14,093 bases of DNA from contig PMJN01000029.1 of assembly GCA_003157445.1 (NCBI GenBank), positions 1 through 14,093 of the forward strand, given 5' to 3'. A model generated the notes under the pieces. The model searched no databases, was not told the origin of the DNA, and was given only the letters and a program-made list of their open reading frames with translations. Shown one piece after another: positions 733-6,341 of this stretch (positions within the stretch are counted from its first letter, which is position 1; each line of letters begins with the position of its first letter). The stretch is from Micrococcales bacterium. GTDB taxonomy: Bacteria; Actinomycetota; Actinomycetes; Actinomycetales; Dermatophilaceae. A program made the position numbers and the translations under genes.

Positions 733-1291
733 TCAAGCCACCGTTGCTGAGGTCGCCGCCGTGATAGAAGCCGCTACCCCAGCCATCATGGCCTCGACCG
801 CCTGACACACCGCCTCAAACGCCCAGTCGCTCTCCGATACTTCCTTCGCCGTCGCCTGGAGCTCCATGCGGCTCAGGCTGTACTCCTTCAGGTCGACGAT
901 CCTGTGCTCCGACTTGTGGGCGTGCAACAAGGAAACGAGCGCCGCCGCCCTGGGGTCCGGCGTCGTCCTTTGCATCAGCACCTGCGTGGGCTGAAGACAC
1001 ACGTGCGGCTCGCGCTCGGCTCTGGCGGCCGGCCAGCGATACACGGGAGAAGCCGATCACCTTGCTCCTCTGCGCGCAGGACATCCTCGGCAACCAGCCG
1101 GGCGTTCAGCGCGGTCCGCAGGTGCCTCTCGAGAGCGTCGACCACGGCCTTCGGCTTCTTCCCCTGACGGGTACTGGTGATCCCGAGTGCTCCGTCGAGG
1201 ATCGGGTCCCCGGTCCTCGACTGTCGTGGACCACGACGTGTCTTCTGTCATCTAGGCCCATCTGCTCCGACACGGTGAGGTCGACGAGGTC
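733..1291 (-). pseudogene. GPP34 (GOLPH3/Vps74-like) family protein, frameshifted remnant
   Basis: Three minus-strand frames join into one GPP34-like protein. The first piece carries LVDLTVSEQMGLDDRRHVVV. The second has GDPILDGALGITSTRQGKKP, then ALERHLRTALNARLVAEDVL and a GDRLLP end. The third carries VYRWPAARAE, PRAAALVSLLHAHKSEHRIV and AKEVSESDWAFEAVCQAVEA before a TGA at 735-733. The ALVSLLHA and AKE(V/I)xExDW blocks are hallmarks of bacterial GPP34 proteins, which in eukaryotes bind phosphatidylinositol-4-phosphate; the role in actinobacteria is unclear. About 185 codons remain, compared with roughly 210-230 in intact relatives, and the N-terminal LLLLDDxxG region is not found. Two frameshifts (near 1205 and 1045) and the missing start indicate a pseudogene, or indel errors in the assembly. 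Only the last 90 or so codons form one open frame. Confidence 0.72.
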
Positions 1292-1720
1292 GCACCACCA
1301 AGGACAACGTCGACCTGTGCGACCCCATCTCACGACGGCTGCAGCACTCCTCGCAAGCCGCTACCTGGCGCCCGCCGGACGATCCGCTTTCGGAGATTGC
1401 TACATCTGTTCGTCGGCGCTCTCGGCCGCGCCGTCGAACGCTCTTGGGAACCGGCCGGGCGCAGACGGCATCTCGAAGCTGGGACGACCAACCGGTGAAA
1501 CCCTCGACGCCGACGAATGAGATCGTTGAGGCCGCGGCAACGGCAGCAGCGGTCTTTTGCGCCGCGCGTGACGACTAACGCAAGTCCGCTCAAAGCACTT
1601 GCCTCAGAAGCCGGCGAGTCGTAAATGGCCCTGGCGCTTACGTTCCTTGGCGCTGTCAACGCCATGGCTACGTGACGACGGCGAGCACAATCGGCGCCCG
1701 AAATTGAGACCTCCACTGGG
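1292..1720. other. Stretch without a recognisable gene
   Basis: Several open frames exist on both strands, but all are rich in Arg/Ser/Ala/Pro without motifs, which is typical of chance frames in GC-rich DNA. No tRNA, repeat or terminator was recognised. It may contain the unrecognisable 5' end of the GPP34 remnant. Confidence 0.4.
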
Positions 1721-1975
1721 TAATCGGACAAAATTGACCGATTGTTCTTTTTGGGACAAAACGGTCGAATCATAACCAAGTATAGATATGCACCTGCCGC
1801 CGCTAAATTAATCGTGCCGTCTCCGTTCCATAGCTTTGAACGTTTACCAAGTCTTTAATAATCGCATCAACTCTCTATACCGAAAATAGGAGAACATATA
1901 TACATCCAGCCGTTACCGTGACGACTTAACCTGCTACGTAGCGACCACGTTTTACCACACAAAAGGGTATATATC
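1721..1975 (+). promoter_or_regulatory. AT-rich leader of the RWS-repeat peptide gene
   Basis: The base composition drops abruptly to AT-rich, unlike the rest of the window. It holds GGACAAAA twice (1726-1733 and 1754-1761, 28 bases apart) and an imperfect inverted repeat with GACCG (1736-1740) facing CGGTC (1762-1766), which could be an operator. Promoter-like boxes are present but ambiguous: TTGAAC at 1836-1841 and TTTAATAAT at 1854-1862 are too close for an ideal spacing, and CTATAC at 1875-1880 is another possible -10. AAAAGGG at 1961-1967 sits 8 bases before the ATG and is the likely ribosome binding site. The regulatory role is inferred from position and composition only. Confidence 0.4.
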
Positions 1976-2146
1976 ATGCGTAAGTTCCTTGCCACCTCAT
2001 TGACTGTTGGCTTCATCGCTCTTGCATCGCTGGTTGCTTCCTCATTCGCCACTTCCCAGGCAACGGCCTCGGCGCGATGGTCAACCCCAGTGGTTGCCTC
2101 GGCCCGGTGGTCAGCTCCTCACCCCGACTCGTCGCGTTGGTCGTAG
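1976..2146 (+). CDS. Secreted RWS-repeat peptide precursor (56 aa), family unknown
   Basis: I do not recognise this gene. It encodes 56 residues starting MRKF. Residues 4-25 are hydrophobic and behave like a Sec signal peptide, and TSQATA (26-31) fits a signal peptidase I A-x-A site. Cleavage there would leave 25 residues: S(A/S)RWS at 32-36, 42-46 and 52-56, separated by the spacers TPVVA and APHPD. The repeat period is exactly ten residues (30 bases: 2069-2083, 2099-2113, 2129-2143), and the last repeat ends at the stop codon. The repeats use different synonymous codons (Arg CGA, CGG, CGT; Ser TCA and TCG), so the peptide rather than the DNA looks conserved. ATG 1976 follows AAAAGGG at 1961-1967. 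No cysteines are present. It may be an exported multi-copy signalling peptide, an antimicrobial or a RiPP precursor; no modifying enzyme or receptor is visible nearby. That it is a gene is fairly likely; its role is unknown. Confidence 0.68.
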   Translation: MRKFLATSLTVGFIALASLVASSFATSQATASARWSTPVVASARWSAPHPDSSRWS

Positions 2147-2221: not shown

Positions 2222-2238
2222 GCCTCTTGCTAAGAGGC
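2222..2238 (+). terminator. Hairpin downstream of the peptide gene (possible terminator)
   Basis: A perfect 7-bp stem, GCCTCTT / AAGAGGC, with a 3-base GCT loop lies 76 bases after the peptide stop codon. There is no following T-run, so intrinsic termination is uncertain; it may instead stabilise the 3' end of a short transcript. Confidence 0.4.
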
Positions 2239-2699
2239 GGTCGTCCCCGCTGGCTCCCGGGCCCTGCTCATGGCGGACAACGCCATGAGCCTCAGAGTGA
2301 CCTTCAGCCCATACTTGAGGGGATGGGCACGGTTCAGTCCACAGGACCCAATAGATCTGATTAACGGCCAGGATGTGGCTCGTCTCAGCACCACTGAGCC
2401 CACCACCCATAGGTCCTTGCGATACGCAGGATCGTCCGTGGTCGTCGCATGAACCTATTGCATCTTCACCTAGTCCCCCTATCTTGTTATCAACGGCGGT
2501 CCAGCAGGGACCGCCCCCGTGAATGGGGTTGGCACATGAACCATCCTGGTGGTTCCAGGAACGGTCGGGATCGCGGTTCCTCTTTGTTCTCGCACAGCGG
2601 GGCACCTTGGCACGACCTCGAAGCGTCAAGCCACCATCTTCCTGTCGACCGTCTTGCCGGCCTCGTCTGCCGCACGGACTCCGCCCGTGCGGCTCGACG
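2239..2699. other. Stretch without a recognisable gene; contains an 8-bp hairpin
   Basis: Open frames here on both strands lack motifs, and the long minus-strand one is antisense to the coiled-coil gene. A strong hairpin, GGCGGTCC / GGACCGCC with a 5-base loop, sits at 2495-2515, and a weaker one (GAACCA / TGGTTC) lies near 2539-2556. Neither has a T-tract. No RNA family was recognised. Confidence 0.4.
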
Positions 2700-3170
2700 A
2701 TGAAAGCGGACGCAAGGCAAGACGAGGCGGAGGCGGCCGAACGTGCAAAGGCAGCCACAGAAGCAGTGCTGGCTCTCGCACAGAAGTTGCATGATGAGTA
2801 CGTGGCCGAGGGCCAGAACACTCGCGAGAGACTCATCAGCGAAGGGCAGTCACGCCACGACCAGGCTGTTGGTGAAGCCACGGCGAGGCAGGACGAGCTT
2901 CTCTCGACCGGTCAGGCCAAGTACGACGAGTTCGTATCCGCCGGCAAGGCCAAGCATGACGAGCTGATCGCTGAGGCCGAAGCACTGGTCGTCGAAGCCC
3001 AGCAGAAGAGGGCCGAGGTGCTTGCGGGGCTCGGTAGCGAGCGTGACGTGCTACAGAAAGAGATCGAAGAGCTGCGAACCATCGAGCGTGACCACCGCGC
3101 CCATCTGAAGTCCTACCTCGAGGGCCAGCTGATCAAGCTGGAGCAGACCGGCGCCGACGAGACCAGCTGA
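2700..3170 (+). CDS. Coiled-coil protein, Wag31/DivIVA- or Scy-like C-terminal region, probably 5'-truncated
   Basis: From ATG 2700 it encodes 156 residues that are almost all charged heptad-like coiled coil. The middle contains a run of roughly 11-residue units each with a (H/Q/Y)D(E/Q)(L/F) core: RHDQAV, RQDELL, KYDEFV, KHDELI. The end, including LQKEIEELRTIERDHRAHLK followed by SYLEGQL, resembles the C-terminal block of actinobacterial DivIVA/Wag31-type and related cytoskeletal coiled-coil proteins, which organise polar growth and septation at the inner membrane. Family members are usually 250 residues or longer and begin with a DivIVA N-terminal domain that is absent here, so this is probably a fragment. 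No good ribosome binding site precedes the ATG, and upstream in-frame codons do not look coding. The coiled coil is certain; the family is an inference. Confidence 0.6.
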   Translation: MKADARQDEAEAAERAKAATEAVLALAQKLHDEYVAEGQNTRERLISEGQSRHDQAVGEATARQDELLSTGQAKYDEFVSAGKAKHDELIAEAEALVVEAQQKRAEVLAGLGSERDVLQKEIEELRTIERDHRAHLKSYLEGQLIKLEQTGADETS

Positions 3171-3266
3171 CAGCGAAGGCCGGCAGGCTCTCGCCCGCAT
3201 GGTCTTCGTACCCAATGAGGATCGCGCTGTCCAGGTTCACCAAAGGGGCAGCACTGCTGAGGCAAT

Positions 3267-3589: not shown

Positions 3590-4313
3590 CGTCGTAGCGT
3601 TTCTGTCATTGTCCGAGTCACGCGCTGGAACACGCCCGCCGAGAGGATGTGCGGCTACTCAGCTGAGGAGATCACCCGCAAGTCCATCCACGTGCTCAGT
3701 CCGCCGGGTCAAGTCGGCGAGATGCACACCATCCCGGCCAGGATCCGGGCCGGCAGGCCTGCCGAGCGCCTCGAAGTCACCCGCGTCCGAAAGGACGGAT
3801 CGGCGATCACGGTCTCACTTACCGTCTCAGCGATCCACGACCAGCGCGCCACGATCGTCAGCGCATCGACGATCGCCGCGACCTGACCGAGGCAACACAG
3901 GCGTTCGAGGCCGCTCGGTCCATGATTGAGTTGAGTTTGGACTCCCTTGTCGCCATCAGTTCCGAAGCCAAGATCACCGACGCCAACCAGGTCGCGGTCA
4001 AGCTCGTCGGCGTCTCTCCCCCCCGCGAGCAACTCATCGGGATCTCCTTCTCCGACAACGTCACCGACCCTGCCAAGGCCGAGATCTACCAGCGGGTGTT
4101 CACGAGCCGATGGCCGTGGACTACCCGCTAACCCTGCGCCACAGGGACGGGCGCGAGACTCTCACCGAAGTCCTGTACAACGCCTTGGTCTACCGGGACA
4201 CGAGCGAAAACGTGCTCGGCGCGTTAGCCGCGGCCCGCGACGTGACCGCGCAGATGCAGGCCCAGAGGGAAGTTGTCGAGCGGCTGGCCGAGCTCGAAGA
4301 ACTCCAGCGGCTC
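3590..4313 (+). pseudogene. PAS-domain sensor protein, two frameshifts and truncated 3' end
   Basis: Three consecutive plus-strand frames make up one multi-PAS protein. The first (to about 3874) has WNTPAERMCGYSAEEITRKS and RVRKDGSAITVSLTVSAIHD, ending near ASTIA. The second (about 3874-4110) continues RDLTEATQAF, SLDSLVAISSEAKITDANQV and LIGISFSDNVTDPAKAEIYQ. The third (about 4105-4313) has YPLTLRHRDG, NVLGALAAARDVTAQMQAQR and then ERLAELEELQR, the start of a coiled-coil linker usual before an output region. The frame is then cut by the integrase-tail block beginning at 4314, so the C-terminus was lost at an integration or deletion junction. With two frameshifts it cannot be functional as written, barring sequence errors. 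It resembles the remnant at 1-457 but lies in the opposite orientation. Confidence 0.7.
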
Positions 4314-4463
4314 GCCTCGGCAACGAGTTTGGGGAGGGGTCCTATGACCCCGTTGCCGTACTTAAATGGATTGGCCATGAAAGAGGCCTCTTCCGACGAC
4401 CGGAGGGGCCTCTGGCCTGGGTGGAGACACGGGGAATCGAACCCCGGACCTCCTGCTTGCAAA
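4314..4463 (-). repeat. Attachment-site block, copy 1: integrase 3' tail + 3' half of tRNA-Ala(TGC)
   Basis: Matches 6188-6341 with scattered differences. On the plus strand the first part (4314-4350) encodes RLGNEFGEG, the tail of the same integrase as in copy 2. The end (4422-4463) on the minus strand is the 3' half of a tRNA-Ala gene: anticodon loop TTTGCAA (anticodon TGC), the anticodon 3' stem, the T-arm with TTCGATT loop, the acceptor strand TGTCTCC with the U70 expected of tRNA-Ala, and discriminator A. Identity between the copies stops at the anticodon loop, as expected for tyrosine-integrase crossover in a tRNA gene. The 5' half of the tRNA is absent, so this is an attachment-site remnant and not a working tRNA gene. 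Confidence 0.75.
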
Positions 4464-4668: not shown

Positions 4669-4938
4669 ATGACGACGACCAAGAGGCGCCGCTTCGAGTT
4701 GCGCACCGACGAGGCCACAGATCAACTGATCTCTGAGGCGGCAGATCTGCTCCACGTCACCAAGTCGGCGTTCGTCGCCGACGCGGCCCGCCAGGCTGCG
4801 GAGAAGATCGTCGCCCGCTCTGACGTGACCCTCATGTCGCCGGTGGTGTTCGACACCATGATGGCGTCCCTGGACGTCCCCGATGAGTCCCCCGAGCTGG
4901 CCAAGCTGGCCAAGCTGCCAAGACTGATCACTCAGTGA
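4669..4938 (+). CDS. TacA-like antitoxin (DUF1778, ribbon-helix-helix)
   Basis: This 89-residue protein has the layout of DUF1778 antitoxins. An N-terminal ribbon-helix-helix DNA-binding domain (about residues 6-45: a basic RRRFELRTDE strand, then two helices through LLHVTKSAFVADAARQAAEK) is followed by a short C-terminal tail (about 55-89, including PVVFDTMMASLD) that in this family wraps the partner acetyltransferase. The tail is expected to neutralise the toxin, and the N-terminal half to bind the operon promoter. The ATG at 4669 has a clear CGGAGG ribosome binding site seven bases upstream. Its TGA overlaps the GTG start of the toxin gene (GTGA, 4935-4938), indicating translational coupling and an antitoxin-first operon. 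Length and order are normal for the family. It looks intact, unlike most neighbours. Confidence 0.9.
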   Translation: MTTTKRRRFELRTDEATDQLISEAADLLHVTKSAFVADAARQAAEKIVARSDVTLMSPVVFDTMMASLDVPDESPELAKLAKLPRLITQ

Positions 4939-5468
4939 TCTCGCCGGTCTACCGCGTCACCAAACTGACCCCCAGGTTCGACCTGAGAGATTTCGACTGC
5001 GGTGAGCCGGCCTACAACGAGTGGCTCGTCCAGCACGCCGTCAAAGCCGTCCAGGCCGGCTCCAGCATGGTTTACCTGCTGCTGGAGCAGGTGGACCCGG
5101 GCGCCAAGGAGCGGGTGGTCGGCTATTACGCGATCTGCCCGACCGTGGTCGTTCGAGACGACATGCCCAAGTCGCTGCAACGCGGCGTGCTGCGCGCCGC
5201 GCCCGCGTGGCTGTTGGCCAAGCTCGCCCTGGACAGGTCGCTGCGCGGCGACAAGGACCACCATTGGGGTGCTCAACTCCTTCGGGAAGCACTGGAGAAG
5301 ATCGTGGCCAGCGTCGAACTGGGCGGTGGCCAGATCATCGTGGTCGACGCCGACAACCCCGGCTTGACCGCCTGGTACTCCCATCAGGGATTCAAGTCCA
5401 CCGGCGGCCAGGACCTGCGGCTCTACATGAAGGTCGCCACAGCAAGAAAGTATCTCGAACAAAGATAG
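4935..5468 (+). CDS. TacT-like GNAT acetyltransferase toxin
   Basis: This 177-residue GCN5-related N-acetyltransferase is encoded directly after a DUF1778 antitoxin. TacT-family toxins transfer the acetyl group from acetyl-CoA to the amino group of charged tRNAs and so block translation. Visible marks are the opening FDCGEPAYNEWL (about 20-31), strand VVGYYAICP (61-69), the helix LAKLALDRSLRG (94-105), the pyrophosphate-loop region ending GAQLLREAL (112-120) and a C-terminal WYSHQGF (147-153) whose Tyr148 corresponds to the conserved catalytic tyrosine. The loop normally reads (Q/R)GxGxG/A; here RGDKDHHWGAQ appears to carry extra residues and lacks the usual short glycine pattern, which could weaken acetyl-CoA binding. 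The start is GTG 4935, overlapping the antitoxin stop by four bases. The pair lies between two attachment-site copies, suggesting it arrived with, and stabilises, an integrated element. Confidence 0.88.
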   Translation: MISPVYRVTKLTPRFDLRDFDCGEPAYNEWLVQHAVKAVQAGSSMVYLLLEQVDPGAKERVVGYYAICPTVVVRDDMPKSLQRGVLRAAPAWLLAKLALDRSLRGDKDHHWGAQLLREALEKIVASVELGGGQIIVVDADNPGLTAWYSHQGFKSTGGQDLRLYMKVATARKYLEQR

Positions 5469-5769: not shown

Positions 5770-6222
5770 ATGGCCGGTCTTCGCCGCTCTACCATTCAGG
5801 AATGCGTCAGTCTGACACAGCCTCCGGTCCCTGCATCATCGCTGCCGCTCCCGGACATCTGCACCCGTGCTCAGCGCGAGGTGACCGAGGCGCGCGCTCG
5901 GTTGGCGGCCGGCGAGGCATGGATGGGGTCGGGCCTGGTCCTCACGACCGGCTACGGCACGCCAATCGACCCTCGCAACTTCCAGCGCTTCTTCCAGGCC
6001 CGGGCGACGAAGGCTGGAGTGCCGGTCATCCCGATGCACGCAACACGGCGAACGTGCGCGTCCCTGCTCGTTGCCCTGGACGTCCACCCGCGGGTGGCGA
6101 TGACCATCCTTCGGCATAGCAAGATGGCCGTGACGATGGACATCTACGCCCAGGGGTCCTCATCGTCGACCAAGGAGGCGCTCAAGCGCCTCGGCAACGA
6201 GTTCGGAGAGGGGGTCCCATGA
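5770..6222 (+). pseudogene. Tyrosine recombinase/phage integrase, C-terminal fragment
   Basis: The frame keeps the C-terminal catalytic half of a tyrosine integrase: GTPIDPRNFQRFFQARATKA, then HATRRTCASLL with the H-x-x-R pair (His90, Arg93 of this frame), LRHSKMAVTMDIYAQ with His116 and the nucleophile Tyr126, and the usual tail KEALKRLGNEFGEG. The N-terminal SAM-like domain and the first catalytic arginine are missing; homology appears to begin only near residue 27 (about 5848), and the preceding residues look non-coding. The stop at 6220-6222 overlaps the attachment-site block, the usual place for an integrase next to its att site. It should be inactive. The element it served used tRNA-Ala(TGC) as its target. 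Confidence 0.85.
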
Positions 6223-6341
6223 CCCCGTTGCCGTACTTTGCTGGAGTACGGGCATGAAAGAAGCCCCATCCGACGAGCGGAAAGGGCCTCTGACCTGGGT
6301 GGAGACACGGGGAATCGAACCCCGGACCTCCTGCTTGCAAA
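6188..6341 (-). repeat. Attachment-site block, copy 2: integrase 3' tail + 3' half of tRNA-Ala(TGC)
   Basis: Second copy of the block at 4314-4463, about 1.88 kb further on. It contains the last codons of the integrase fragment, a perfect hairpin CCGTACT / AGTACGG (6231-6251), a GC-rich stretch with facing GCCC and GGGC runs, and the tRNA-Ala 3' half on the minus strand at 6300-6341. Beyond the TTTGCAA loop the sequence differs from copy 1 and no tRNA 5' half follows. Both copies therefore look like distal ends of integrated elements, with the intact tRNA gene expected elsewhere. Confidence 0.75.
6231..6251 (+). terminator. Hairpin just after the integrase stop
   Basis: A perfect 7-bp stem (CCGTACT / AGTACGG) with a 7-base loop begins 8 bases after the integrase stop. 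No T-run follows. It may terminate integrase transcription, but the same motif at 4551-4571 is upstream of the toxin-antitoxin operon, so a protein-binding role is equally possible. Confidence 0.4.

Follow-up and report, generated by a model that had tools for sequence, protein, structure and literature searches.

The window, by which we mean the whole stretch of DNA analysed, comprises the first 14,093 bases of a contig of 21,257 bases (C66) in a 3.8-Mb assembly that is 69% complete. At positions 1976-2146 of the forward strand, 1,975 bases in from the contig start, lies a short open reading frame that translates to 56 residues: MRKFLATSLTVGFIALASLVASSFATSQATA followed by SARWS TPVVA SARWS APHPD SSRWS and a stop codon. 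The gene and its surroundings comprise the following features.

1700-1975, plus strand: AT-richer stretch upstream, a possible promoter region (GC by windows)
1961-1967, plus strand: AAAAGGG, a putative ribosome-binding site 8 bases 5' of the ATG (read from the sequence)
1976-2146, plus strand: putative precursor gene, protein P0001, 56 aa, ATG to TAG (translation; full-length homologue P0002, 80% identity)
1976-2068, plus strand: signal-peptide-like part, residues 1-31, the last three ATA (hydropathy, -3/-1 rule)
2069-2083, plus strand: unit 1, SARWS, first residue 32 (translation, codons)
2084-2098, plus strand: spacer 1, TPVVA; VPVVA in P0002 (translation, P0002 alignment)
2099-2113, plus strand: unit 2, SARWS, first residue 42 (translation, codons)
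2114-2128, plus strand: spacer 2, APHPD; TPQPA in P0002 (translation, P0002 alignment)
2129-2143, plus strand: unit 3, SSRWS, first residue 52, followed at once by the stop codon TAG; SARWS in P0002 (translation, alignment)
2222-2290, plus strand: two perfect downstream hairpins (2222-2238 and 2266-2290), possible terminators without a T run (folding)

Translation bears out the arrangement described in a first-pass annotation of this DNA, namely three S(A/S)RWS pentapeptides at residues 32, 42 and 52, five-residue spacers and a stop right after the last unit. The same annotation had proposed a signal-peptide-like start with an A-x-A site directly before unit 1. Hydropathy and the -3/-1 rule support this proposal, as the protein begins with MRK, the best 15-residue hydropathy (2.03) falls on residues 11-25 and the rule is satisfied at A29/A31, although it allows other cuts too, for example at A25. 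The predicted mature part of 25 residues contains 3 Arg and 3 Trp but no Lys, with a net charge of +2 (+3 in P0002), and its tryptophans recur with a period of 10 residues. Pfam found no domain in the 56-aa protein. Around the start of the gene the GC content drops to 0.48 (1601-2000) and 0.51 (1801-2200), against 0.59-0.67 in the flanking windows on both sides, and no sigma-70 consensus was found in a scan of the upstream stretch. A terminator scan found none, and the folding z of the whole hairpin stretch (-1.29) was not significant.

The three units are encoded by TCG GCG CGA TGG TCA, TCG GCC CGG TGG TCA and TCG TCG CGT TGG TCG. The earlier statement that the repeats differ by synonymous codons therefore holds for units 1 and 2, whose differences are synonymous only, whereas unit 3 additionally changes A to S. 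Unit pairs 1-2, 1-3 and 2-3 agree at 13, 12 and 11 of 15 bases, compared with 5 of 15 for the spacers (Fisher p 0.008, 0.025 and 0.066, respectively). Because the spacer DNA is dissimilar, we rejected a DNA tandem repeat as the origin of the SARWS units, and the contrast between units and spacers within the gene suggests selection acting on the units. Searching the window with the two-unit DNA pattern gave two occurrences, and none of 200 shuffled versions contained it. At the protein level, we counted triplets of 5-mers that recur at a constant spacing of 5-12 residues, each at least 4/5 like the next; such repeats arose in 6 of 100,000 whole-protein shuffles and in 7 of 200,000 shuffles of residues 26-56. 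Three other loci (L116, L084 and L099) also carry three SSRWS at period 10, but these derive from near-perfect 30-base DNA repeats, for which reason we set them apart from the peptide gene; open frames cross these repeats on both strands.

A search of 5.8 billion proteins returned a single match, P0002 (E 6.9e-18), which is likewise 56 aa long, is identical to P0001 at 45 of 56 residues and comes from a single metagenome contig of 2,019 bases. The two proteins have in common the frame, the junction of ATA with the following S, three S-x-R-W-S units, both spacer lengths and the C-terminal end. Since P0002 retains all of these, 1976-2146 is probably a real gene, and the search for homologues with conserved repeats that the first-pass annotation had set as a test was answered positively, by this one protein only. 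Of the 11 differences between the two proteins, 6 are in the signal part (31 residues), 4 in the spacers (10 residues) and 1 in the units (15 residues), the last being S53A, which turns SSRWS into SARWS. This deficit of unit changes is not significant relative to all other positions (1/15 vs 10/41; p 0.25) or to the spacers (1/15 vs 4/10; p 0.12). Thus, the earlier claim that selection acts on the peptide is suggested by the DNA contrast within the gene and not significantly by the comparison with P0002.

As far as the databases searched can tell, the gene is very rare. An alignment search for further relatives added none beyond P0002. In its own genome, the two-unit pattern gave no second copy, and the next match after the gene had an E of 0.007. 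Weak matches were found in 9 of 186 family genomes (E 0.0017-0.009) and 5 of 396 order genomes (E 9e-5 to 7e-4), the window's own genome not counted in either; among these 14 loci only L247 had two units, in a 488-residue frame that we judged to be chance. Across approximately 85,000 species genomes, a back-translated scan yielded 596 pattern-matching stretches, none confirmed as a relative, and a three-unit DNA pattern yielded 57 loci, none judged a short precursor by translation, with the proviso that genome pattern scans may miss relatives whose spacing differs or whose arginines are encoded by AGR. Loose and mid-strength DNA patterns matched 186/186, 136/394 and 30/186 family and class genomes; for the loose pattern that matched 186/186, a reversed control gave comparable numbers. 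Part of these matches, 134 loci and then 50 more, were translated. Among the latter, 3 were the window gene, 45 had fewer than two units, and two had two units but were judged chance (L247, and L157 with a 37-residue open stretch). No match to plasmids or phages was obtained by tblastn. In viral contigs, 29 stretches included no confirmed relative and 4 pattern loci included no short precursor on translation. An artificial SARWS-context query produced 709 candidates, none at E <=10, and there was no Rfam hit at gathering score and none among PDB sequences.

The peptide gene lies in a stretch that appears variable. At the far end of the contig, tRNA-Ala and tRNA-Ile genes (L253 5976-6401) adjoin an integrase and two HTH_17 ORFs; the intact tRNA-Ala(TGC) gene, integrase and HTH_17 ORFs of this array occupy L253 4702-6401. 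Two more copies of the tRNA-Ala 3' end are present at window positions 4420-4463 and 6298-6341, within a duplicated block (4313-4463 and 6187-6341), and an integrase piece (5770-6222) adjoins them. The region resembles a series of integrative-element remnants, and the peptide gene is located beyond the outermost 3' end copy. In a genus relative (G001), a stretch compared with the window (C74:1-8000) is alike only at window positions 2425-2682 and 2745-3224, no peptide gene was found in G001, and a conjugation coupling-protein gene (TraG/TraD type) lies approximately 600 bases past this stretch. The peptide gene therefore occupies a variable and possibly mobile region.

Several further features surround the gene. 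Upstream there is a C-terminal piece of a GPP34 (Golgi phosphoprotein 3-like) gene (733-1044, minus strand), apparently a remnant, and 611-711 and 807-871 are 91-94% alike to another contig of the same genome (C440). A PAS domain is encoded at the contig end (2-457, minus strand), and a PAS-type stretch at 3618-4312 has many diverged copies in the window's genome and genus relatives. Downstream, a coiled-coil ORF (2700-3170) has a weak likeness to Wag31/DivIVA (NCBIfam E 2.6e-23, below cut-off) and no Pfam match, with similar stretches in 3/3 genus relatives. At 4669-5468, a TacA1-like antitoxin gene (Pfam PF08681) is followed by a 177-aa ORF without a Pfam match that probably encodes its acetyltransferase toxin partner.

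These data bear on whether 1976-2146 is a gene at all, rather than an open frame that arose by chance or the remains of a decayed gene. Its location in variable DNA surrounded by gene remnants (the GPP34 and integrase pieces), its atypical codon-position GC (0.51/0.68/0.63) and the lack of a confirmed relative in the sampled family and order genomes are what a fragment would lead one to expect. Against this, P0002 retains the full frame and pattern, repeats of such quality seldom arise in shuffles and the AAAAGGG is well spaced from the ATG, and we regard the absence of a gene as highly improbable.

The reading that we favour, tentatively and by analogy, is that the gene encodes a multi-copy secreted peptide precursor with a signalling role, similar to the Phr propeptides of Bacillota. 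In this model, the product would be exported by the Sec pathway and cut by signal peptidase after ATA (residue 31), which would free a net positive peptide of 25 residues in which two variable spacers separate three S[AS]RWS units. The 25-mer would then be trimmed by extracellular proteases into multiple copies of a single short peptide, which might act on a receptor encoded elsewhere, as Phr propeptides do. The passages cited here describe Phr propeptides as 50-120 aa long, with several copies of the pheromone (up to eight reported) after a Sec signal, one of them typically C-terminal, and with conserved pheromone regions in an otherwise variable remainder (PMC11343458). In Phr105, 4 residues separate two identical copies, whereas the spacer of Phr3T is 14 residues; for both, export, cutting and trimming are established, and extracellular proteases such as WprA, Bpr and NprE help to release the copies once signal peptidase has cut (PMC11343458). 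Thus, the earlier statement that no described bacterial family has such a layout does not stand for the layout itself, which Phr propeptides match in these same passages (PMC11343458).

The likeness to Rap-Phr (RRNPPA) systems extends to a short precursor with predicted Sec export, a repeated short peptide with spacers and a C-terminal copy; the layout of P0001, with its 56 aa, hydrophobic start, -3/-1 site and C-terminal unit, fits that of an RRNPPA propeptide. In favour of the precursor reading are this match to Phr in length, Sec-type start, short spacers and a last unit flush with the stop; the retention in P0002 of the ATA-S junction, three units, 10-residue period and C-terminal RWS; and the likeness of unit DNA but not of spacer DNA. 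A further point is that some Phr systems are on mobile elements (PMC11343458) and this contig is rich in integrative-element remnants. Nonetheless, P0001 comes from another phylum, its unit contains a Trp and has Arg as the third residue, there are three copies, and no sequence relation to Phr was found. RRNPPA signalling is described for Bacillota, and one paper's introduction describes the signals of Actinomycetota as typically enzyme-made small molecules (PMC10075063), which counts against the precursor reading, as do the single homologue and the non-significant unit conservation relative to P0002 alone.

The first-pass annotation had also called for inspection of the neighbours for a receptor, protease or modifying enzyme, and none was recognised. 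Among the contig ORFs scanned, Pfam identified no TPR receptor, peptidase or transporter, apart from one AI-2E transporter-like match far below the family cut-off, and this too counts against the precursor reading. No receptor-type HTH domain was found in the neighbouring ORFs scanned on a contig that starts 1,975 bases upstream; the only such domains recognised are in the two small HTH_17 excisionase-like ORFs, approximately 16 kb from the peptide gene. Because no receptor was recognised nearby, in a difference from Rap-Phr, and because the upstream contig end conceals some of the surroundings, we hold the signalling role only tentatively.

Cyanobactin-type multi-core RiPP precursors carry several short cores in one precursor, as P0001 does, and such repeated short cores count in favour of a second kind of precursor, in which the units would be enzymatically modified, for example by Arg-Trp crosslinks. 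We consider this very improbable, as P0001 starts with a Sec-type signal and not with the usual RiPP leader or recognition sequences, and no modifying enzyme was recognised with Pfam and NCBIfam in the selected contig ORFs scanned. What was first described as a multi-copy exported peptide remains the best reading, helped by a homologue with conserved units, while the suggestion of a multi-core RiPP found no support. We assign neither RRNPPA nor RiPP membership, since the ORFs scanned yielded neither a recognisable receptor nor a recognisable modifying enzyme. KEX2 sites are dibasic. In the passages cited, fungal alpha-factor-type/KEX2 precursors resemble P0001 in their repeated identical or near-identical motifs, which in that case are released by proteolysis (PMC6339444), but these precursors are eukaryotic and have KEX2 sites, which P0001 does not.

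The 25-mer might also act uncut, as a cationic, Trp/Arg-rich, membrane-active peptide of the antimicrobial type, with the RW pairs active and the spacers merely spacing them. Its 3 Arg, 3 Trp and net positive charge, together with the signal-like start, would suit such a role, and the lack of a confirmed relative elsewhere fits a fast-changing competition factor. However, the Arg/Trp density of the 25-mer is low for antimicrobial peptides of this kind, no immunity or transport gene was recognised beside the peptide gene, and the role needs neither an exact 10-residue period nor a flush C-terminal end, so that an intact cationic peptide seems unlikely.

A motif pattern scan for SARWS revealed that the unit is also present in much larger proteins. 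In five actinobacterial lineages (L097, L108, L109, L125 and L131, L125 as a fragment only), S8 subtilases end in tandem SARWS. Pfam Peptidase_S8 matched in 3/3 tailed proteins scanned, and L108 is 56-69% identical to other SARWS-tailed subtilases. Tailed subtilase loci comprise L097, L108/L210, L109, L125, L131, L211, L212 and L214-L243, although L234 looked like an unrelated repeat. In most tails displayed, Trp recurs about every 5 residues in lineage-specific flavours (SARWS, SGTRW, SGSQW, SGHTW, SSRSW and TGASW). The tail was matched in 27 of 394 genomes of the class sample at E <=1e-8, and in the 186 family genomes the tail query gave 15 matches at E 0.001, of which G003, G089 and G087 were strong (E <=1.3e-41) and the rest weak (E 3e-7 to 1e-3). 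At 5/6 SARWS-type loci examined (L210, L211, L097, L131 and L109), the subtilase gene has a GAF-GGDEF-EAL-related gene as its direct neighbour on the same strand, whereas the distance is approximately 5 kb at the sixth, L212; the domains were confirmed by Pfam in L097, L109, L210 and L131.

The tails resemble the peptide in their tandem SARWS and, in L097 and L131, in ending with RWS at the stop, and they suggest another role for the peptide: SARWS may be a surface-interaction motif, and the peptide may bind the partner of the subtilase tails, or bind or decoy the tails themselves. The five lineages, the two shared endings and the occurrence of a SARWS-tailed subtilase in G003, which belongs to the window's genus (100% match), speak for this view, and a unit common to peptide and tails within one genus is suggestive. 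On the other hand, P0001 has no Peptidase S8 domain, the tails belong to large proteases with a unit period of 5, many flavours and Trp in nearly every pentad, and Trp in the peptide recurs only every 10 residues. Moreover, the tailed subtilase was not found at E 1e-10 in the three other genus genomes, including the window's (G000, G001 and G002; 69-87% complete), with only a weak tail-like match in G001 (E 2.3e-4). Because the tails were found by searching for SARWS, the overlap may also be due to chance, and we consider such a role unlikely. A related proposal, an actinobacterial signalling or surface system in which the small exported SARWS peptide and the SARWS-tailed subtilases (next to cyclic-di-GMP-type GGDEF-EAL genes in related genomes) use one pentapeptide code, for example with copies of the peptide taking up the site where the protease tails meet their partner, is distinctly unlikely. 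For many small exported proteins no role has been assigned, which favours yet another function, such as a spacer, adhesion or protease bait, but we judge this improbable.

Among the open-licence literature matches listed, titles and the opening parts of abstracts describe neither this gene nor the subtilase tails, and include no multi-copy exported precursor in actinobacteria. The analysis draws attention to the subtilase tail, for which a family model was found in neither Pfam nor NCBIfam in the three proteins scanned, and the unit that it has in common with the peptide provides a concrete partner hypothesis. If the precursor is genuine, SARWS and the 25-mer would be cheap synthetic peptides for direct tests. 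To our knowledge, bacterial precursors of multi-copy exported peptides have been described mainly in Bacillota, and a genuine actinobacterial example would extend this layout to another phylum.
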